This document shows, piece by piece, positions 17,772 to 50,042 of a DNA stretch of 64,000 nt. A model generated the notes under the pieces. The model was not told the DNA's origin. It was given only the letters and a program-made list of their open reading frames with translations, and ran no database searches. A program made the translations under genes and the position numbers. Location: contig NZ_CP146612.1 in assembly GCF_037094495.1 (NCBI RefSeq), positions 310,001 through 374,000 of the forward strand, in the 5' to 3' direction. This stretch comes from Dehalogenimonas sp. W. Its GTDB lineage: Bacteria; Chloroflexota; Dehalococcoidia; Dehalococcoidales; Dehalococcoidaceae. How positions within the stretch are numbered: the first letter of the stretch is position 1; every line of letters starts with the position of its first letter.

Positions 17772-18392
17772 ATGCACCGGCTAAAACCGGACAGCGCTGG
17801 TGATACATCGGACACCGCCAACCAACCGGCAGGGGGTTTTTCCCAGGTGCAGCAAGACGAACGAGAAATTATAACGCGGGCGCAAGCGCGGGATGCGGAG
17901 GCCTTCGGTCTTATCTATGAAGCCTATTTTGATAAGATTTACCGTTATGTCAGCATTAAAACCGGCAACCGCACGGAGGCTGAAGACTTGACGCAGCAGG
18001 TGTTTGTCAAAGCCCTGAGTTCAATACATTCTTACAAGGTGATGAGCAACATCCCTTTCAGTGCCTGGTTGTACCGTATCGCGCATAACCAGATCGTTGA
18101 CAGCCTGAGAAAGAGGTCGCGCCGGCCAACAGTGGAGCTGGATGAGACGATGCCGCTGGCGGCTGATGATGATCCGGCCGCCGAAACCGAATTAAAAATG
18201 GAGAGCCGGGAACTTATAGCGGCAACCCAAAAACTGACCCCGTCCCAAAGGGAGGTGATTGCCCTGCGTTTCGGGGCCGAGCTGCCCATTGCTGAGGTAG
18301 CCCGCCTGACCGGCCGAACCGAAGGGGCTGTCAAGGCAATGCAGCACGCGGCTATAGCCGCATTGCGGCGGCTGATGATGGAAAAAATATGA
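17772..18392 (+). CDS. ECF-like RNA polymerase sigma factor
   Basis: The product is a two-domain sigma-70-family factor. Sigma region 2 spans roughly residues 40-105 (AEAFGLIYEAYFDKIYRYVS, DLTQQVFVKAL, FSAWLYRIAHNQIVDSLRK) and region 4 roughly 130-200 (LTPSQREVIALRFGAELPIA). The first 25 residues are Gly/Ala/Pro-rich and unlike the family. A TATAAT box ends two bases before this ATG, so the true start may be the in-frame GTG at 17847, preceded by AGGGGG, giving 181 residues. It overlaps the next gene by four bases; that gene is probably its regulator. Confidence 0.85.
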   Translation: MHRLKPDSAGDTSDTANQPAGGFSQVQQDEREIITRAQARDAEAFGLIYEAYFDKIYRYVSIKTGNRTEAEDLTQQVFVKALSSIHSYKVMSNIPFSAWLYRIAHNQIVDSLRKRSRRPTVELDETMPLAADDDPAAETELKMESRELIAATQKLTPSQREVIALRFGAELPIAEVARLTGRTEGAVKAMQHAAIAALRRLMMEKI

Positions 18393-19231
18393 ATACAGCA
18401 GATAAACACAACAACAACATAATAATAGAAGACATCTTTGATGAATGTCTGGATGCCGTGCTTTCCGGCCGCGCTTCAGTAGAAAACTGCATGGAAAAAT
18501 ACCCCGCTCAAGCCGCAGAACTGGCCGACCTGCTGAATATCGCCCTGGGAATCGCCCGGTCACCCGAACTTGTGCCTTCGCCCGGTGCCAGAATGCGCAT
18601 CCGTTATGGGCTGAATGAAAAACTGGCCGAGACGGCACATCGGCAAAACAAACCATTCTGGCGTCTCGGCTGGGCCAACGCCGTAATAACTCTGTTGCTC
18701 AGCCTTAGTCTAGGAGGCGGCGGCCTGGCATTTACCGTCAGCGGCAGTATGCCGGGTGAGGTCTTGTATCCGCTGAAAACTGGTATGGAGCAGACTTTAA
18801 TCAGCCTGACTCCGGGAAATGATGCCAAAGTTAAGCTCTATACGGCATTCAATGATCGCCGGGTAGCTGAAATCATGTACCTGGCCGGCATTGGTGATTC
18901 GCTAGCTATTGCCGAACTCACTTCAAGCATTGCCGCCAACTTCTCCGCGGCCGCGGCTATACAAGGTCTTAATCCTAATAAAACGATAGATATGCTGGCT
19001 CCTCCGTCCGGCACGGAATGGACCGTCAGTATTACCGGTACGCCCGAAAACGACCGAGGTGCGGGAGTTTCATCCGCCGTTGCTGAAATATTGACTGATG
19101 CCGAAGCTTCCCAACTGGCCAGCTTGACTGATATCCCTCCCGGTGCGTCGCCGGCGGTCCAACTGGCGCTGGAACAGGCCGCGGCGGTTATCCGCGACGG
19201 CTATTCCGATCTATTATCCCGCTTTGATTAA
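18389..19231 (+). CDS. membrane-anchored DUF5667-like protein, putative anti-sigma partner
   Basis: The 280 residues have an N-terminal cytoplasmic part with DECLDAVLSGRASVENCMEK and YPAQAAELADLLNIALGIAR, seen in proteins encoded beside ECF sigma factors. One membrane segment follows at about 88-112 (AVITLLLSLSLGGGGLAF). The outer part resembles DUF5667 (MPGEVLYPLKTGMEQ, FNDRRVAEI). Overlap with the sigma gene (ATGA) implies paired synthesis. The family call is from memory of sequence style; the anti-sigma role is inferred from topology and context. Confidence 0.65.
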   Translation: MNTADKHNNNIIIEDIFDECLDAVLSGRASVENCMEKYPAQAAELADLLNIALGIARSPELVPSPGARMRIRYGLNEKLAETAHRQNKPFWRLGWANAVITLLLSLSLGGGGLAFTVSGSMPGEVLYPLKTGMEQTLISLTPGNDAKVKLYTAFNDRRVAEIMYLAGIGDSLAIAELTSSIAANFSAAAAIQGLNPNKTIDMLAPPSGTEWTVSITGTPENDRGAGVSSAVAEILTDAEASQLASLTDIPPGASPAVQLALEQAAAVIRDGYSDLLSRFD

Positions 19232-19285: not shown

Positions 19286-20917
19286 TCAGACCGCAACTGT
19301 TTCCGCCTCGGTGACCCTGACCTTCCCGGCTGTAGCGCTCAGGAATTCAATGATTTCCGGTGAGGGATTGATATGCGGCGGTGATAAATGAGCCAATTCC
19401 GCCCCGGCTGCCTGCTGCTTCAATTTATAAAGTTTGAAGGCTCCTTGCGGCAGCACCGTGACTTCCAGCGGCATCAACCCGGTAAAATCCTCCAACTCAG
19501 AATACGGTTGATCAAGCTGTTTGAGTTCGGCATGAATCAGACCAGCGGCCTCCTGAGCATTGATTCGCTGTCCCTTTTTGGGCTCCAGATAGTAACGCAA
19601 CACTGGCCGACCCTTGCTGGTTTCTTTACGGGCAGTCCAGTTATCATAGGCCACCCGCGAATGCTCCAGAGCCTGCCACAGAACTTTTTCCGATAACCTG
19701 GTGAAACCGGCGATGTCTATCTGATCATCAACCCGGGTCAGGAAGCGCATCTGGGGAATATCAATATCCAGTTTGTCATTCCGGAGTGAGGTAATCTGGA
19801 CCAGGTGGCCCAGACGGTAACGGACAAAGGCACCGCCGTGGAAATTGGTAATGACCAGTTCGTAGTTCCCTGGCTTGAGTTCGTTCATCAAATAGGTCTG
19901 TGGCTGGTATGACGGATCCTGCCAGCATTTGACGGCTTCTGATTCGGGGATGAACTCAAAGAAGTTCATATGGGGGATAAAGGTCATGCCCTGATGATCC
20001 CAAGTCTGCATGGCGATGATAACAGCTTCAGTACAACCGTGAAAGTCCAAGGGATAACACCCCCACATTTCATTGATCTTATCCCGAAATACTTCGCCGT
20101 CAATTCCGTAGGTAATGAGACCCTTGAGTTTCCACAAATCCTTCGGCAGCATTGGCCGGCCGGCCAGTTTGGCTCTCATTTTACCCTTAAGCAGCCGGGC
20201 CAGCATGGCAGGCTTTTTTACCATTTTTTTTATGTCAACCTTGCCGCCGGAACTCTTAAATTTCTCGCCCATGGCTACGGTGACGCTGGACATGGACAAA
20301 CAGTAATCCATCCCCTTTTCCAATCCCATTTTGAAGCCCTGAGTAACGCGTTCTTCAAATGAGACATTCTCAGCCTCCTCTACCGGCGGCAAAAACTGGA
20401 AGATCTCATGGGGGAAAACCCGGGTCATGGTGCCGGTAGCATAAGGCGGCGGCGCCATGCCGTAAAGCACCCGGTCATTGGGACGAATGGTAACGTCATG
20501 GCGCTTTTTGGCGCCGGAAAAGAAGGAGAGGGCAAAAACCAGCGCCTCAGTCTCATCCATCATCCGGGCGGTCACCGGGGCCCAGCGGTAAGAATACTCT
20601 GCGCTTTTACCGGAAGTATATTGCCACATAATCGGCTTGCGCGGCAGCACATCCCACCGCCGCTTCAAAAGATAGGGCGCGTAGTCTTCATAGCTGGTCA
20701 ACGGCACCATACGGCGGAATTCTTCCACCGTGGTAGGATTGGCACCATTGAAGATACCCTTGCCCAGCGGGCAGTTCTTCAGCATCTCAATTTGTTCCAA
20801 AAGCAAACGCTTTTGGATATCCATAAATTGATTTATGCTCAGATCAATAAACCCGCAACAGCGATCCCACATCTCATCATATTGTCCCTGTTCCAACATG
20901 TCACCTAACTGGCTCAT
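19286..20917 (-). CDS. GH3-family acyl-adenylating enzyme (putative acyl-acid amido synthetase)
   Basis: The 543 residues resemble the GH3 family, best known from plants, where it adenylates carboxylic acids and conjugates them to amino acids. Recognisable parts are FRRMVPLTSYEDYAPYL, the nucleotide-binding stretch WQYTSGKSAEYSYRW, and late in the protein GAFVRYRLGHLVQI and DIAGFTRLSEKVL. The substrate cannot be told. It is the last gene of a minus-strand pair; its ATG overlaps the stop of the membrane methyltransferase-like gene, and a GGAGGT site precedes it. Confidence 0.8.
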   Translation of the reverse strand: MSQLGDMLEQGQYDEMWDRCCGFIDLSINQFMDIQKRLLLEQIEMLKNCPLGKGIFNGANPTTVEEFRRMVPLTSYEDYAPYLLKRRWDVLPRKPIMWQYTSGKSAEYSYRWAPVTARMMDETEALVFALSFFSGAKKRHDVTIRPNDRVLYGMAPPPYATGTMTRVFPHEIFQFLPPVEEAENVSFEERVTQGFKMGLEKGMDYCLSMSSVTVAMGEKFKSSGGKVDIKKMVKKPAMLARLLKGKMRAKLAGRPMLPKDLWKLKGLITYGIDGEVFRDKINEMWGCYPLDFHGCTEAVIIAMQTWDHQGMTFIPHMNFFEFIPESEAVKCWQDPSYQPQTYLMNELKPGNYELVITNFHGGAFVRYRLGHLVQITSLRNDKLDIDIPQMRFLTRVDDQIDIAGFTRLSEKVLWQALEHSRVAYDNWTARKETSKGRPVLRYYLEPKKGQRINAQEAAGLIHAELKQLDQPYSELEDFTGLMPLEVTVLPQGAFKLYKLKQQAAGAELAHLSPPHINPSPEIIEFLSATAGKVRVTEAETVAV

Positions 20918-21504
20918 TTTGACTGGACCTCCAATTTGTTATTTTTTTTCAAGCCTTTGAAGAAGGCGGTTAGACTTTGTTTGCTAGGAATAAGCATGGG
21001 AGTAGTTTCCTGGTACCGGTGATAACCCGGAAACATACGAGGAAAAACGTAGCGATCCTGGAGGTAGACGAGTATAGTGGAGAAAAGAACCCAGACGATC
21101 CCAGCCCAAAGAGCCAGCAGGGACCCTGACAACAATACCAGCCCTGCCATGGCGAACCCGAAAAACAGCAACCAGGGATGGCGAACCAATTCATAGATGC
21201 CATTAGTGACCAATTGCCCGCTGGTACCGCTGGATATATAGGTTTTACCGATTGGGAGCGCTACATATAGTGAATAGGCCATACCAAACAAGGCAGCCGA
21301 AAATACGCCCCAACCGAAAATGTTAATCCACACGGGAAATCCAAAATGGTTTCCCGTCACGGCAACATTGAACATGGCGTAGACGACAAGCCCGGTCCCA
21401 ACGAGCCACAAAAGCGGCTTTAACCCGGTGATCTTCTTCATTGAGGCAAAATCAAGGAAATGCATCAGCATGAAACCGGCAGCCCCTAATAAAATGTAGT
21501 TCAT
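20914..21504 (-). CDS. integral membrane methyltransferase-like protein (ICMT/PEMT/NnrU type)
   Basis: The 196 residues have about five hydrophobic segments. The C-terminal half carries the pattern of membrane-bound isoprenylcysteine and phospholipid methyltransferases: LVTNGIYELVRHPWLL, then after two helices DRYVFPRMFPGYHRYQETTP with the E-x(n)-YxxY-type end. The family would use S-adenosylmethionine; the acceptor is unknown. Translational overlap with the GH3-like gene suggests both act on the same lipid or acid. No ribosome binding site is seen at the start. Confidence 0.7.
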   Translation of the reverse strand: MNYILLGAAGFMLMHFLDFASMKKITGLKPLLWLVGTGLVVYAMFNVAVTGNHFGFPVWINIFGWGVFSAALFGMAYSLYVALPIGKTYISSGTSGQLVTNGIYELVRHPWLLFFGFAMAGLVLLSGSLLALWAGIVWVLFSTILVYLQDRYVFPRMFPGYHRYQETTPMLIPSKQSLTAFFKGLKKNNKLEVQSK

Positions 21505-21514
21505 AATATTTAAT

Positions 21515-21522
21515 TAGTACTA
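21515..21522. promoter_or_regulatory. TAGTACTA palindrome, start-proximal box
   Basis: The perfect 8-base palindrome TAGTACTA lies 11 bases before the start of the methyltransferase-like gene, where a promoter -10 region is expected. Two identical copies occur at 21554 and 22411. Confidence 0.45.
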
Positions 21523-21553
21523 TGCCAGTCATTCGGGGCTATTGGAAGGTATA

Positions 21554-21576
21554 TAGTACTAGAACAATGTTCTAGT
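21554..21576. promoter_or_regulatory. composite operator: TAGTACTA fused to a 19-base palindrome
   Basis: TAGTACTA (21554-21561) overlaps the left arm of a second palindrome, ACTAGAAC-AAT-GTTCTAGT (21558-21576). It is centred about 60 bases upstream of the methyltransferase-like gene. Perfect 8-base arms strongly suggest a dimeric DNA-binding protein; the winged-helix or ribbon-helix-helix protein next door is the natural candidate. Confidence 0.6.
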
Positions 21577-21594
21577 CATAGCTGAGGTACGATT

Positions 21595-21627
21595 AAAAAA
21601 AATTCTCCCCCGATTTGGGGGAGAATT
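21595..21627 (-). terminator. rho-independent terminator
   Basis: On the minus strand an 11-base-pair stem (AATTCTCCCCC with GGGGGAGAATT, 5-base loop) is followed by a run of T. It ends the regulator operon above it and separates it from the methyltransferase-GH3 pair. Confidence 0.9.
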
Positions 21628-21664
21628 AACATTTCCTTTGAAAACTCTCAGACTTGAGCGACGG

Positions 21665-22078
21665 CTATTTCCATTTGATCTTGACTTCCCGTCCTTCTTC
21701 TTCCGGAGCGTTCTGATCAACCCCGGTAAACTTGGAAGTCATTTCCTTCAAATCCAGCGGACCTTCTTTGCCAAGTTCCAAGCCGTAGCCGATAAAGAAA
21801 TCCACAAAGCTCTTCATTAATTTCTTGGTATCTTCCTGAAACCCGGCCATCTCTTCCTTCAGAGCATACTTGTAACTTTCCTTGTTAAGCATCCTGGCAA
21901 ACTCAGCCTTAAGCTGCTCCAGGTCCTCACGGGAAATTCCAGTTGCAGACGGGACGGGTTCTTTCAGTTGGTTGTCAATGAGAAAATTAAGGAATTCAGC
22001 CTGAGAAAGGTCACCGCGGTTTTCATCAATCTTCTTGAGCAACTCCGCTGGCACGATCAACATTCGCTTTTCAGTCAT
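21665..22078 (-). CDS. small regulator-like protein with N-terminal ribbon-helix-helix-like segment
   Basis: I do not recognise this 137-residue protein as a named family. The first 40 residues (RMLIVPAELLKKIDENRGD, SQAEFLNFLIDNQL) look like a MetJ/Arc-type ribbon-helix-helix: a beta strand, then two helices. The rest is amphipathic and charged, probably helical, ending in a Lys-rich KIKWK. It starts inside the stop of the winged-helix gene (ATGA overlap), so the two are co-translated. A role as co-regulator is inferred. Confidence 0.55.
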   Translation of the reverse strand: MTEKRMLIVPAELLKKIDENRGDLSQAEFLNFLIDNQLKEPVPSATGISREDLEQLKAEFARMLNKESYKYALKEEMAGFQEDTKKLMKSFVDFFIGYGLELGKEGPLDLKEMTSKFTGVDQNAPEEEGREVKIKWK

Positions 22079-22371
22079 AGTACTCCTGTCGGGGACGCAT
22101 CTTCATCGTCATCTTTGAGATTAAGAGTATCAAGTATTTCGTCTATATGGCGCAAAAGCGTCAAACCTTTTTTGGTGACCCGGTAAGTAACCGAAGGGTT
22201 GCCCAGCTTGACCCGGTCCACTAACTCCCGGTCAATCATGAAATTAAGATATTTCTGTAGCTGAAAATAGCTCATATTGACGGAATACATGATTTCCGTC
22301 TTGCCGGCTTCACCCAGCCGCAACATATCTGCGATAATTTCAATGCTGGACCTTCTGCGGTCTAATCTCAT
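22075..22371 (-). CDS. archaeal-type winged helix-turn-helix regulator
   Basis: From the ATG at 22371 the product has 98 residues and one winged-helix domain: SSIEIIADMLRLGEAGKTEI, MYSVNMSYFQLQKYLNFMID (recognition helix region) and VTYRVTKKGLTLLRHIDEI. This is the HTH_45-like type common in archaea and Dehalococcoidia. Longer in-frame starts reach back to 22431 but would cover the promoter. It is divergent from pilT and co-translated with the ribbon-helix-helix-like gene. Its own start region carries a TAGTACTA box, suggesting autoregulation. Confidence 0.75.
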   Translation of the reverse strand: MRLDRRRSSIEIIADMLRLGEAGKTEIMYSVNMSYFQLQKYLNFMIDRELVDRVKLGNPSVTYRVTKKGLTLLRHIDEILDTLNLKDDDEDASPTGVL

Positions 22372-22410
22372 CGGTACCCTACTAAAGTCCTTTTTATTGC
22401 GAATTACGAC

Positions 22411-22423
22411 TAGTACTATTATA
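22411..22423 (-). promoter_or_regulatory. -10 box and TAGTACTA operator of the winged-helix gene
   Basis: Minus-strand TATAAT (22423-22418) is followed immediately by the palindrome TAGTACTA (22418-22411), which would cover the transcription start. A protein bound there should block the promoter. The -35 region is weak. Confidence 0.55.
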
Positions 22424-22465
22424 CTACCCACGTCAAGTGTTATCAGGTGTATTATTATCCATACA

Positions 22466-22480
22466 CGGAATAATATTCCG
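22466..22480. promoter_or_regulatory. inverted repeat CGGAATA-A-TATTCCG upstream of pilT
   Basis: A palindrome with 7-base arms lies 20 bases before the pilT start codon, in the region shared with the divergent winged-helix gene. Its position between promoter and ribosome binding site fits a repressor site; its sequence differs from the TAGTACTA boxes. Confidence 0.45.
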
Positions 22481-22500: not shown

Positions 22501-23592
22501 ATGAAAGCTGAGGAACTGCTACGGGCAATGGTCAAAGCCGGGGCTTCAGACCTGCACTTGAAGGTCCCCAATCCGCCGGTTTTCCGCATTGATGGAATGC
22601 TCAAACGCCAAACCAATTACGGCCCGATCAATGCCGGCGACATGGAGCGCTTGTTCCGAGAAATGACTACCCCTGAACAGCAGGAACATTTTATTCATGA
22701 CAAAGAACTTGATTTTGCGATGTCAGTTCCCGATGTCTCACGCTTCCGGGTCAATATCATGTACCAGCGGGGCACCATTTCCATCGCTGTCCGCCAGGTC
22801 CCCTTCCATATAATGACCATTGATATGTTGAACCTGCCGGGCATCCTGAAAAGCCTGATCATGAAACCCCGGGGCCTTATTCTGGTCACCGGCCCGACGG
22901 GTTCCGGTAAATCCACCACTCTGGCCGCCATGCTGCAGCATCTTAATGAAAACCGCCACTCCAGTGTCATCACCATTGAAGATCCCATTGAATACGTATT
23001 TCAGGACAATAAATGCATTATCGCCCAGCGGGAATTGGGCGGCGACACCTCTTCCTATCCTACTGCTCTGCGCCATGCCCTGCGCCATGACCCGGATGTG
23101 ATCGTCGTGGGTGAAATCAGGGATATTGATACCATCACTACCGCGGTGGCTGCCGCCGAGACCGGCCATTTGGTTTTGGGAACCCTGCATACCATTAATG
23201 CCGTACAGACTGTGGACAGAGTGATTGATATGTACCCGCCAAACCAGCAACATCAGATTCGGATGCAATTATCACAGGCATTGGAGGCAGTGGTTTCCCA
23301 AACGCTTATCAAAAGGGCCAACGGCAGCGGACGGGTGGGCTGCTTTGAAATACTGCTGACGACCACCGCGGTTAGAAATCTGGTTCGCGAAGGTAAAACC
23401 TTTGAACTGCACTCCATCATGCAGCTGAACCGGCAGGCCGGCATGCAGACTCTGGATCAGAATCTAGCCGAACTGGCGGCGAATGGGATTGTAACTAAAG
23501 AAGAAGCGCTTATGAAGAGCGATAATCCCGACCGTCTGGAACGGTTGATTGAGGATACCAAACGGCACGTCAGAGCCCCAAATCCATTTTAG
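22501..23592 (+). CDS. pilT: PilT-like twitching motility ATPase
   Basis: PilT is the hexameric ATPase that retracts type IV pili at the inner membrane. The 363 residues have the N-terminal PAS-like domain (AGASDLHLKVPNPPVFRIDG), Walker A GPTGSGKST from residue 131, the Asp box TIEDPIEYVF, Walker B VIVVGEIRD and the His box AAAETGHLVLGTLHT. AIRNLIRE-type retraction signature is present as AVRNLVREGK. The GGGGAGG site confirms the ATG. No pilB, pilC or pilin gene is adjacent. Confidence 0.93.
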   Translation: MKAEELLRAMVKAGASDLHLKVPNPPVFRIDGMLKRQTNYGPINAGDMERLFREMTTPEQQEHFIHDKELDFAMSVPDVSRFRVNIMYQRGTISIAVRQVPFHIMTIDMLNLPGILKSLIMKPRGLILVTGPTGSGKSTTLAAMLQHLNENRHSSVITIEDPIEYVFQDNKCIIAQRELGGDTSSYPTALRHALRHDPDVIVVGEIRDIDTITTAVAAAETGHLVLGTLHTINAVQTVDRVIDMYPPNQQHQIRMQLSQALEAVVSQTLIKRANGSGRVGCFEILLTTTAVRNLVREGKTFELHSIMQLNRQAGMQTLDQNLAELAANGIVTKEEALMKSDNPDRLERLIEDTKRHVRAPNPF

Positions 23593-23710: not shown

Positions 23711-26700
23711 TTGACCGTCTGGGCTGCCATACCGCTGGTTACATCCATAGCATACTTAGTACTGCTGTTGTTAATGTTGCCTAGTTTGGACCGCAAAATC
23801 AGTCGGGCGATGGCATATTTTGCCGGCATTGCCGCGCTTTGGGGTTTTAGTTCCTTCATGTTGCATCTGGATGCACCGGCTTCACAAACCCTGTTATGGA
23901 ACAAAATTCTGATTATTACTTTAGTATGGACACTTGTGGCCTATTACCATTTTGTTCGCGTGTATGTATTCAATAAAGCTGGAATTGGTGTACTAGCAGG
24001 ATATCTCGGACTGGCCATAGTGGCGATTCTTTCATTGAATGGACATATCGTTACCAGCGCCTCTGTCCTTGAAGGTGTCGTCCATCAGACAATGACCGCT
24101 AACGTGTACCTTGTAACGCTCATAGTGCTGACCATCACATTACTGAGTGCGTCGGCCCTGTGGCATAAATTTCGGAGCACCCAAAACGTTGATGAACGCC
24201 TCACTCCAATAGTCCTGTTGACCGGTATGTTGATTGCCGTTACCGCCGGCTTCACCAATCTAAGTGACAACCCGATGATATACGGTCTGCCGATTGACCA
24301 GTTAGCCAGTTTCATTAATCTTTCATTAATCGTCTTTGTAATTTTCCGGCACCGCCTCGTCCCGTTAAGAAACATCAATACCCAAAGAGGCTTCACCTAC
24401 GCTTTATTGACACCACTTGCCTTGTTCTCCTTTGGAGGGTTGGCCTCAATTACCATGGGACTCAGCGGCAACACACCGCAAATATTAGGCTTAAATGCCT
24501 GGGCAATTATTCCATTGGTGGCCAGTATTGTGTATGTGGTATTACTCTTACTGGTACTTCAGGATACAGAACGAAAAGCTAATAGATTCTTCGCCTATTT
24601 TCTGAGTGTTGCGGCATTTTGGAGTTTCACCTCCTTTATGCTGGTTTTCAACCCGGCTGCAGCCCCCGAACAACTTCAGTTCTGGAATGAAATGGTTGTC
24701 GTAGCCATCACCTGGATCGGCGTAGCTTATTACCATTTTGTCAGAGTGTATGTTAACAAGCCCGGGGGCATCTGGGTCTACATCGGTTATGCGTTTACCT
24801 TCACCATTTTAATTCTTGCCCTGAACGGAATGGTCGTCTCAAATGTCAGCCTCGTGAATGGATATATTCTCCATGATATCCGGCCTTGGGATATTGTTAT
24901 CGGTTCAATCATTGCCCCGTTTGTTATTGCCGGCGTATACATGCTCCTCAGGCGCTATAGACAATCCATTGACCCGGTTGATCGCAACCGGACGGTCTAC
25001 CTTTTACTTGGTTCAGCTGCTTTGATCATTCTTAGCTATATAACTCCCTTCACACCGGCACTGGCCGGTTTGACGACCGACCATATCGGCAACATTATCA
25101 ATACTGCGTTAATTGCCTATGCAATATCCCGCTTTCATTTACTTGATATCAAACTGGTCGCACGCCGCGGTCTGACTTTCCTGATACTGGTCACCGCTTT
25201 GGCCGCTACCTATGCCGGCATGTTATTCCTGACCCTTCAATTATTCCCGGGAATACCCCAAACCACCGTCATGATTATTACCGGCATAATCGTCACTCTG
25301 CTCGCGTTGACAGCTCGGCCGCTGACTCATTTTATCGCCGTTACCGTAGACCGGATTTTCTATCGGGAAAACTATGTCCACCGTCAGGAACTGCTGAACT
25401 TTTCCAACAAGATGAGTTACATCCTGAATCTGGAAGAACTCTCACAGGCGATCCTGCCGCCCCTGGCCCAGGCGCTGAATATCAGCCATGCGGCGCTGTT
25501 ATTCCAAAATAACCCGGCGGCGGATTTTACCGTTCAATATATATATCCTGAGAATCACGAATTAAGGAACAGTTTCCGTATGCCGGCGGATAACCCGATT
25601 GTGGAGTGGATGGATCGCAAGGGTAGAGCCATATCACCCGCACAGGTACATTCTATGGCGGAATTCAAGGGGTTGTGGCAATCAGAGAAAGAGCAACTGG
25701 CCAATGCGGACCTGGCCCTGATCCACCCAATCAAGAGCCGGGATAAACTGGTCGGCATCATCGCTACCGGCAATAAAAACAACGGCGGCGTATATTCCAC
25801 TGAAGACTTGGAACTGATTAACCGTATTTCTTCCCAAGCCGGCGTCATCATTGAAAATGCGCAACTGTTTATTCAAGCGAATACCCGCGCCAATACCGAC
25901 GAACTCACCGGCCTTTATAACCACCGCCATTTCCACGAACGTGTAGAACAGGAAATCAGCCGCGGCGGCCGGTTCGGCATCACCTTCTCCCTGATACTGC
26001 TGGACCTTGACCTGTTTAAGGTTTATAACGATATCTACGGCCATCTGGCCGGAGATCAGCTTCTGCGCAAGGTAGGGCAGATGATTCATACTTCAGTACG
26101 CAATATTGATCTGCCTTTCCGCTACGGCGGTGAGGAATTCGCCATAATCCTCCCGGAAACCCGCATTGATGATGCTTATCGGGTAGCTGAACGCTTGAGA
26201 AAGACCATTGAAGCCCGTTCCAGTTTCCGGGAAATGCCGGTTACTGCAAGCCTCGGTGTATCCAACTGGCCGGGTGACGGGCTGATGAAGGAAGAAGTGA
26301 TTCATCGCGCGGATTTAGCGCTGTACCGCGCCAAACGGTTAGGGCGCAACCGGACCTGTCTGGCCTCCGAAACCGCCGGACCGGAGGCTCCCGACCTTAA
26401 CGCTGAGCCGGAGGCGCAACCGCAGGCTTTGTCCATCATCTACGCCCTGGCGGCTACCGTGGACGCCAAAGACCACTATACCTACGGCCACTCCCGCAAG
26501 GTGAGTGAATATGCGGTAGCCCTGGCGGAAGCCGTCAAACTGCCGGAAGAAACGGTCCATTTCATCCGGGCGGCCGGTTTACTTCATGATATCGGTAAAA
26601 TCGGCGTTCCAGATTCTATCCTGACCAAACCATCGGCACTTGACCTCAAGGAATGGGAACCCATCCGTACGCATCCGGAACTGGGAGTGGAAATACTGAA

Positions 26701-27037
26701 GCATGTGGTTGACCTTTCCAAATGTCTGCCGGCGATTCTCCATCACCACGAACACTGGGACGGCAGCGGCTACCCGCACAAACTCAAAGGGGAATCCATA
26801 CCGCTGGAAGCGAGGATACTGACGGTAGCCGATGCTTATGACGCCATCACTTCCCCGCGGCCTTACCGCGACCAATTATCACTTGATGAAGCGCTGACGG
26901 AACTCAGACGATGTTCCGGCAGTCAGTTTGACCCGCAACTGGTTGAGGTGTTCTGCCGCATCATGCAACCTTCGGAAGAAGAGCGCGCCGGCGCCGAACG
27001 CCGCGCGGAAACGAAAACCACAACCACCGAAGATTAA
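23711..27037 (+). CDS. membrane c-di-GMP enzyme: tandem 7TM, GAF, GGDEF, HD-GYP
   Basis: The 1108 residues open with two homologous 7TM-type sensor modules; residues 5-51 and 265-311 are clearly alike, and both have VAYYHFVRVYV. A GAF domain follows at about 555-715. The GGDEF domain (about 720-885) has GGEEF at 806-810 and the inhibitory-site pattern R797-x-x-D800. The HD-GYP domain (about 905-1080) has HD at 959-960 and HHE-x-x-DGSGYP at 1012-1022. Both synthesis and breakdown motifs are intact. The TTG start is supported by an upstream GGGGGA. No ATG precedes the first helix. Confidence 0.88.
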   Translation: MTVWAAIPLVTSIAYLVLLLLMLPSLDRKISRAMAYFAGIAALWGFSSFMLHLDAPASQTLLWNKILIITLVWTLVAYYHFVRVYVFNKAGIGVLAGYLGLAIVAILSLNGHIVTSASVLEGVVHQTMTANVYLVTLIVLTITLLSASALWHKFRSTQNVDERLTPIVLLTGMLIAVTAGFTNLSDNPMIYGLPIDQLASFINLSLIVFVIFRHRLVPLRNINTQRGFTYALLTPLALFSFGGLASITMGLSGNTPQILGLNAWAIIPLVASIVYVVLLLLVLQDTERKANRFFAYFLSVAAFWSFTSFMLVFNPAAAPEQLQFWNEMVVVAITWIGVAYYHFVRVYVNKPGGIWVYIGYAFTFTILILALNGMVVSNVSLVNGYILHDIRPWDIVIGSIIAPFVIAGVYMLLRRYRQSIDPVDRNRTVYLLLGSAALIILSYITPFTPALAGLTTDHIGNIINTALIAYAISRFHLLDIKLVARRGLTFLILVTALAATYAGMLFLTLQLFPGIPQTTVMIITGIIVTLLALTARPLTHFIAVTVDRIFYRENYVHRQELLNFSNKMSYILNLEELSQAILPPLAQALNISHAALLFQNNPAADFTVQYIYPENHELRNSFRMPADNPIVEWMDRKGRAISPAQVHSMAEFKGLWQSEKEQLANADLALIHPIKSRDKLVGIIATGNKNNGGVYSTEDLELINRISSQAGVIIENAQLFIQANTRANTDELTGLYNHRHFHERVEQEISRGGRFGITFSLILLDLDLFKVYNDIYGHLAGDQLLRKVGQMIHTSVRNIDLPFRYGGEEFAIILPETRIDDAYRVAERLRKTIEARSSFREMPVTASLGVSNWPGDGLMKEEVIHRADLALYRAKRLGRNRTCLASETAGPEAPDLNAEPEAQPQALSIIYALAATVDAKDHYTYGHSRKVSEYAVALAEAVKLPEETVHFIRAAGLLHDIGKIGVPDSILTKPSALDLKEWEPIRTHPELGVEILKHVVDLSKCLPAILHHHEHWDGSGYPHKLKGESIPLEARILTVADAYDAITSPRPYRDQLSLDEALTELRRCSGSQFDPQLVEVFCRIMQPSEEERAGAERRAETKTTTTED

Positions 27038-49139: not shown

Positions 49140-50042
49140 TTAATCCCCGGTACAGCGGTTTTTCCCCGCTTTTTTACTGGCATACATCAGGTCATCCGCT
49201 CGCCGCATAATGGTATCCGGGTCGTCGCCAGGCCTGGCAACCGTCACCCCCGCAGAGACAGTCACGCATATTTCCCGGTCTTGTCTCGTCAACATGGAAC
49301 CGGCGACAAGATTGCGCATCCGTTCAGCGATTTCATAAAGCTGTATACCATCAACGTTAGTGCCCACAATCACGAACTCCTCCCCCCCCCAACGAAAGAA
49401 TAATGACTGAGGACTGCGGATATTGGCCATAATAGTCCGGGCTATCATCTTCAACACGTCATCTCCGGTATCATGACCATAGACATCATTGACTGACTTG
49501 AAATTATCAATATCAAACATGATGACACCGAAAGGCCAATCATAACGGTTGAACTCATTGAACTTGGTTTCAAGGGTAATATTGGCATAACGCCGGTTAC
49601 CGGCCCGGGTCAGTTCATCAATAAGCGATAGCTTTTCCAGTTCAGCGACTTGTTCTTGAAGCTGAAAGTTTTGTGAATTATCGGTGAAGGTTTCAATAGC
49701 ACCGATAATGACGCCTGATTCATCACGCATGGGCATCACTTTGATGTTCACCGGCACCCTGTGGCCGTCCCGGTGCAGCATAAAAGCCGAGGATTCATGA
49801 GGCCGACCATCCGCCATGGTAGCCGTCAGCGGACAACCATTTAAACACAAACTTGTGCCTTTGTCATCAGTATGAACCAGGATATTATCAGCACACCGAA
49901 ATCCCAAAACCTCAGCAGCGGTCCTTCCGGTCAGGGCTTCAGCGGCTTTATTCCAATAGGAAATCCGTCTTTCGCAATCAACAAAGTAAACGCCTTCGCT
50001 CAGATTGTCCAGCAGCGTTTCAACTAATTCGGCTTGTATCAT
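49140..50042 (-). CDS. PAS-GGDEF diguanylate cyclase
   Basis: The 300 residues have one PAS domain (about 10-125) and a GGDEF domain (about 140-300) with the active motif RWGGEEFVIVG. The inhibitory RxxD site is missing, since the residues five before GGEEF are SPQS. The PAS has three Cys in a CLNGCPL-type cluster, which may hold a cofactor or sense redox state. Its ATG overlaps the stop of the large hybrid kinase, so it is probably the kinase's output partner. Confidence 0.9.
   Translation of the reverse strand: MIQAELVETLLDNLSEGVYFVDCERRISYWNKAAEALTGRTAAEVLGFRCADNILVHTDDKGTSLCLNGCPLTATMADGRPHESSAFMLHRDGHRVPVNIKVMPMRDESGVIIGAIETFTDNSQNFQLQEQVAELEKLSLIDELTRAGNRRYANITLETKFNEFNRYDWPFGVIMFDIDNFKSVNDVYGHDTGDDVLKMIARTIMANIRSPQSLFFRWGGEEFVIVGTNVDGIQLYEIAERMRNLVAGSMLTRQDREICVTVSAGVTVARPGDDPDTIMRRADDLMYASKKAGKNRCTGD

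Follow-up and report, generated by a model that had tools for sequence, protein, structure and literature searches.

In a 64,000-nucleotide stretch of the complete genome (1,772,240 bases) of Dehalogenimonas sp. W (contig NZ_CP146612.1, positions 310,001 to 374,000; in the following referred to as the window), a gene of the GH3 family overlaps that of a membrane methyltransferase, and GH3 is tied, across the class Dehalococcoidia and beyond it within the phylum, to one clade of receptors that combine a seven-transmembrane (7TM) input part with GAF domains. We consider the chances about even that these genes constitute a conserved chemical-signalling module, in which the GH3 product, often methylated, is sensed by the 7TM-GAF receptor. 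Almost no roles are known for bacterial GH3 enzymes beyond one lipid pathway. For the Dehalococcoidia, cleaners of chlorinated solvents, the module provides a specific candidate for a signal and one for its receptor, with an enzyme, a receptor and a DNA site named for testing. If it indeed serves signalling between cells, it would be, to the extent of our searches, the first such system in organohalide-respiring bacteria, and would parallel the conjugation of hormones in plants.

The original prediction for this DNA had described a self-contained module of four genes. All four open reading frames (19286-22480) proved to be real and to lie on the minus strand where it had placed them, including both 4-nt overlaps, one between the methyltransferase and GH3 and one between the winged-helix and the ribbon-helix-helix (RHH)-like gene. 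The four genes do not form a closed unit: the partner that accompanies them most constantly is a 7TM-GAF sensor, which had been left unconnected, and the methyltransferase is often missing or replaced. The main genes are:

19286-20917, minus strand: GH3-family acyl-adenylating amide synthetase, 543 amino acids (Pfam GH3_M and GH3; class-wide alignment)
20914-21504, minus strand: ICMT/PEMT-type membrane methyltransferase with several transmembrane segments, 196 amino acids (Pfam PEMT; family profile)
21665-22078, minus strand: RHH-like conserved small protein, 137 amino acids, candidate operator-binding regulator
22075-22371, minus strand: winged-helix regulator, HTH_45/Sso10a-like, 98 amino acids (profiles; the longest open reading frame reaches 22431)
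23711-27037, plus strand: partner sensor with two HisKA_7TM regions, GAF, GGDEF and HD-GYP, divergent and displaced beyond a pilT gene

Linkage of GH3 to a 7TM-GAF receptor

Of 197 genomes of the class, 53 carry a GH3 homologue, as do at least two (G353, G359) from elsewhere in the phylum. We read the neighbourhoods of about 60 loci and found that they recur across the class, so that the four genes are neighbours well beyond this genome, and the notion of an isolated curiosity of one genome was rejected. A mobile module spread by horizontal transfer was likewise rejected, with no GH3 homologue among 72,556 plasmids. Outside the window's genus, GH3 and the orthologous sensor share one strand, with the sensor gene directly following GH3; the sensor has an N-terminal 7TM part and one or two GAF domains. 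Among roughly 50 loci that could be assessed, 46 have it no more than three genes downstream; not counted in this set are the window's genus, four loci at contig ends and L076, a distant GH3 outgroup. HisKA_7TM matches number only 0-4 per genome (24 genomes searched), with two such proteins in the window's genome. In a tree of the sensors, 50 linked and 12 unlinked 7TM proteins are split at a branch with 100/100 support, and the window sensor falls among the GH3-linked ones. Its HisKA_7TM match (44.1 bits against a cut-off of 28.6) is accompanied by matches to GAF, GGDEF and HD_5, and its GGEEF, I-site and HD-GYP motifs are intact. Tandem 7TM regions are seen in this sensor and in those of L037 and L038, the other members of the genus having one. 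Besides this sensor the genome encodes just one further GGDEF protein, whose GGDEF domain lies in the same window (49155-49625, minus strand).

The distribution of the two genes agrees with their proximity. Of the 197 class genomes, 48 possess both GH3 and the sensor, 5 GH3 only, 7 the sensor only and 137 neither (Fisher p=2e-32, where "sensor" covers strong matches only, by a cut chosen by eye, and the test is uncorrected for relatedness). Genus g18 (G012, G145) has kept the RHH-like gene and lost GH3; the sensor adjoining the RHH-like gene there reads GAF-GAF-GGDEF-HD and starts just past the missing 7TM part. In G177, from the same family, both GH3 and the 7TM sensor are kept. Such a co-loss is what one would expect to see if the GH3 product is received by the 7TM part. 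The outputs of the sensors are varied: 25 carry GGDEF and HD, 1 GGDEF, 16 a histidine kinase and 7 a histidine kinase with a receiver, and 3 were left unassigned. Because outputs are thus swapped between GGDEF plus HD and histidine kinase, it is the 7TM input part, not the output, that stays with GH3.

Proposed signalling mechanism and points against it

In the mechanism that we propose, GH3 would adenylate a hydrophobic carboxylic acid and couple it with an amine, most probably that of an amino acid, to give an N-acyl amino acid, which the neighbouring methyltransferase would often methylate. The 7TM-GAF membrane receptor would sense this product and answer by turnover of cyclic di-GMP (c-di-GMP) through GGDEF and HD-GYP, as in the window, where it lies next to pilT; in other lineages the answer would pass via a histidine kinase to a response regulator. 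The winged-helix and RHH-like proteins, where present, may act on a dedicated palindromic operator and so control the enzyme unit. The known chemistry of GH3 enzymes (those of plants, and OlsH, see below) makes an N-acyl amino acid the likely product. As no OlsI-like acyltransferase is found among the window neighbours, we favour a single-chain, signal-like compound over a bulk membrane lipid. We infer the amide product, its binding by the receptor and an action between cells. More tentatively, and with somewhat less than even probability, the genes may represent a new class of cell-cell signalling in Chloroflexota, with a GH3 autoinducer synthase, a dedicated 7TM-GAF receptor and a swappable output (c-di-GMP or phosphorelay). 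As regards quorum sensing, what was found is linkage only: the gene for a candidate signal synthase goes together with a single clade of membrane receptors.

Several observations weigh against the proposed signalling module. Besides the cut chosen by eye and the uncorrected test mentioned above, the co-loss is one event in a single genus. Sensors of the 7TM clade, together with paralogues, occur without a GH3 nearby in G007, G026, G084, G106 and G143; G010 has GH3 and no sensor, and the deep-branch GH3 genes of L085 and L087 are followed by soluble GAF kinases devoid of a 7TM part. About half of the loci lack an adjacent methyltransferase, and that of L056 (6182-6448) is internally deleted, its RHP region being gone, with GH3 and sensor intact. 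A PilZ domain or receptor was looked for in the window's genome and none was found. In the enzyme itself, the ribose-binding Asp of motif III (YRLGD) is replaced by His in the window's order-level group (RYRLGH), and the C-terminal Lys of KPPH is Ser in the window GH3 and two close relatives, so that catalysis, predicted from family membership, needs proof in this protein. Finally, the substrate, the product and its binding by the receptor are all predictions.

The GH3 enzyme and its methyltransferases

The 543-residue protein belongs to the GH3 family as predicted: its matches to Pfam GH3_M (3.5e-12) and to the GH3 N-terminal domain (4.4e-9) lie above the cut-offs, and a profile built from 30 relatives matches solved plant GH3 structures at 2e-21. 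GH3_M and GH3 are matched by 30/30 and 29/30 relatives, and the C-terminal domain (GH3_C), sub-threshold in the window (0.019), by 20/30. Three motifs can be recognized, namely TSGK (101-104), HGCTE (293-297) and RYRLGH (366-371). Motif I (T101-S102-G103) is present in the window; its Ser, essential in OlsH, is replaced in some relatives. Motif II contains T296-E297, with E297 invariant across the 30 aligned proteins, and the Asp of motif III is kept in most lineages other than the window's and its closest groups. The protein is predicted to form amide bonds in an ATP-dependent manner. An AlphaFold model of GH3 was left unused (predicted local distance difference test, pLDDT, about 41, from an alignment of just 3 sequences).

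The pairing of GH3 with an ICMT-like membrane methyltransferase was also upheld. The latter matches Pfam PEMT above its cut-off (9.7e-6), its family profile matches the solved Methanosarcina ICMT (Ma-ICMT, 4a2n; 3.5e-7), and the RHP and TPM..P motifs are invariant in the family; against the equivalog NF040696 (protein-S-isoprenylcysteine O-methyltransferase) it reached 23.2 bits, the curated cut-off being 160. At six loci (L066, L067, L069, L071, L075, L088) an unrelated soluble class I methyltransferase stands directly upstream of GH3; this replacement enzyme resembles PmtA-type phospholipid N-methyltransferases and UbiE, in all cases below the NCBIfam cut-offs. Judged by these families (ICMT/PEMT; PmtA/UbiE-like), either N-methylation or carboxyl methylation would be allowed.

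The order winged-helix, RHH-like, methyltransferase, GH3 is kept throughout the window's genus and its sister genus and turns up again in other families, and the same order without the methyltransferase is found in a large group (f47, part of f48, f5, f61, f76, f77). In deep branches the winged-helix and RHH-like genes are missing, and GH3 is preceded by a class I methyltransferase, a secreted-type protein or a response regulator.

Regulators and a dedicated operator

The winged-helix protein had been recognized correctly, with matches above the cut-offs to HTH_45 (5.7e-22, 78 bits against 25.5) and Sso10a_fam (62.7 bits against 60). It more probably starts at the ATG at 22371 than at the GTG at 22431, since its relatives have 93-98 amino acids and the longer reading frame would cross a conserved TATAAT/TAGTACTA promoter (22411-22418). 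The RHH-like protein has no match in Pfam, NCBIfam or PDB families; its assignment to the RHH family is unsupported by these searches, and "ribbon-helix-helix" is a sequence impression only. It represents a conserved family of its own, present in 32 of the 197 class genomes, 26 of them with GH3. Its AlphaFold2 model (pLDDT 41, alignment of just 3 sequences) was not used. L046 (2-776) has two copies of the RHH-like gene, which flank the operator; the first copy is truncated at the contig end.

The winged-helix/RHH-like pair and the methyltransferase/GH3 pair are two separate transcription units, with an intrinsic terminator and a conserved operator in the DNA that divides them. The elements of these regions are:

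21515-21522, no strand assigned: TAGTACTA box in the promoter region of the methyltransferase-GH3 unit
21544-21550, minus strand: ACCTTCC element at a fixed distance from the palindrome (promoter/operator block aligned in 29 loci)
21554-21561, no strand assigned: TAGTACTA box adjoining the palindrome
21559-21575, minus strand: putative palindromic operator CTAGAACATTGTTCTAG of the methyltransferase-GH3 unit, by conservation
21601-21627, minus strand: intrinsic terminator 3' of the RHH-like gene, followed by the conserved promoter/operator block
22411-22418, no strand assigned: TAGTACTA box beside the TATAAT of the winged-helix/RHH-like promoter

The TAGTACTA box occurs in three copies in the window against 0.18 expected, each in intergenic DNA of the module, and the exact palindrome CTAGAACATTGTTCTAG is present once in the whole 1.77-Mb genome. 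The block has the consensus TAGAACa.T.TTCTAG.Ac..aAt..CTTCC.A and is located upstream of the methyltransferase-GH3 unit or, where the methyltransferase is missing, of GH3. Its palindromic core, searched as TAGAAC-N3-5-TTCTA, was found in 29/29 loci with winged-helix and RHH-like genes versus 0/29 without them, a count made on the loci in which the motif was first seen, hence not an independent test set, and uncorrected for relatedness. Half of the loci examined thus have a private operator, in keeping with the earlier claim of local regulators. The palindrome stands upstream of a weak promoter-like pair, CTTCC...CATAGTAT, a position that would suit an activator. A LexA box was considered and rejected, as the spacing is off by one base relative to the Gram-positive box. 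An Rfam scan for riboswitches gave one tRNA only.

Comparison with known systems and alternative explanations

The closest known counterpart is the ornithine-lipid pathway OlsH-OlsG-OlsI of Singulisphaera acidiphila, in which the GH3 enzyme OlsH uses ATP to join a free fatty acid to ornithine, yielding N-acyl ornithine, and OlsG is an N-methyltransferase (PMC12493201). As in the window, a bacterial GH3 and a methyltransferase share one operon there, and the product proposed here is likewise an N-acyl amino acid. Differences exist in that neither receptor nor dedicated regulators are described for the Ols system (PMC12493201), that its alpha/beta-hydrolase OlsI, an O-acyltransferase, was not found among the window neighbours, and that the methyltransferase here is an ICMT/PEMT-type membrane protein and the motif III Asp a His. 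By analogy, GH3 and methyltransferase could make a bulk methylated amino lipid, with the sensor monitoring the membrane and adjusting synthesis. We hold this membrane-lipid pathway to be unlikely, albeit the most serious of the alternatives: OlsH and OlsG do make trimethyl-ornithine lipid from a shared operon (PMC12493201), and the methyltransferases here resemble PEMT and, in their replacements, PmtA-type phospholipid N-methyltransferases. However, these resemblances lie below the NCBIfam cut-offs, no two-chain lipid is apparent as the annotation of the window neighbours includes no OlsI-like O-acyltransferase, and the methyltransferase is often missing where the sensor is nearly constant.

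Plant GH3 enzymes (JAR1, GH3.8, GH3.12) belong to the same family by profile and act beside hormone perception; identity to them is low, the N-terminal acyl-binding part has diverged, and the plant side has no receptor operon. Since plant GH3s conjugate hormones (PMC12493201), among them auxin and jasmonate, the enzyme could alternatively conjugate, and so activate or inactivate, an acid ligand from another source, tuning the input of the 7TM sensor. Such signal attenuation fits the enzyme-receptor linkage equally well and is compatible with sensors lacking a GH3, yet it leaves the recurrent co-translated methyltransferase unexplained, and we judge it improbable. A mere joint inheritance of long-standing neighbours, with no functional link, is very improbable: vertical inheritance inflates all counts, which are uncorrected here, but the linkage holds at GH3 identities down to ~35% and outside the class (L074, L075), it survives rearrangement in the window's genus, the partner domains were lost together and the operator is perfectly co-distributed.

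For a signalling module there are two further points of comparison. In the Rpf system the HD-GYP output is RpfG. RpfC of the RpfF/RpfC/RpfG system binds the fatty-acid signal DSF (diffusible signal factor; PMC5391125). A fatty-acid-type signal, a multi-transmembrane sensor and an HD-GYP output are common to both, whereas the present system is without a crotonase-type synthase and has receptor and output on one polypeptide. Quorum sensing in Ralstonia (PhcB/PhcS/PhcR) pairs a sensor kinase with a signal made by a methyltransferase (PMC8578825, PMC11960443); a methyltransferase gene set, a membrane sensor histidine kinase and a small lipid-like signal are shared features. By contrast, GH3 is not part of Phc, the receptor here is of the HisKA_7TM-GAF type, often with GGDEF/HD-GYP output, and the present enzymes and sensors are not identified with Phc proteins.

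The original prediction knew of no described system of this composition. This has to be restricted, as GH3 with a methyltransferase (OlsH/OlsG/OlsI, PMC12493201) is known already, and so is a sensor kinase paired with a signal that a methyltransferase makes. For GH3 and methyltransferase with a dedicated receptor we found no precedent in the open-access literature. Similarly, no description of GH3 combined with a histidine kinase or autoinducer was found there, which is weak evidence of absence, nor one of cell-cell signalling in Dehalococcoidia in the open-access literature searched.

Neighbouring genes

Upstream of deep-branch GH3 genes lies a family ("c19") of ~200 amino acids with a signal peptide and a beta-rich appearance, for which there is no Pfam family:

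L070, 8544-9203: secreted-type c19 protein
L072, 656-1243: secreted-type c19 protein
L073, 5828-6457: secreted-type c19 protein
L080, 6144-6725: secreted-type c19 protein

The idea that these are methyltransferases was rejected, given their secreted, beta-rich look and lack of a family; they are possible ligand carriers. Response regulators with an N-terminal HTH_17 and a C-terminal receiver stand directly upstream of methyltransferase/GH3 in f23/f49 (L050, 1052-1585; L052, 6105-6638). In the window, an extracytoplasmic function (ECF)-type sigma factor overlaps a DUF5667 anti-sigma-like protein (17772-19231); this pair is missing at that place in some members of the genus and convergent with GH3 in several others. 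Between the module and the sensor in Dehalogenimonas lies:

22501-23592, plus strand: PilT-like type IV pilus ATPase (T2SSE 2.5e-51)

This pilT gene has the same position in relatives from the window's genus and is a possible output of the module.

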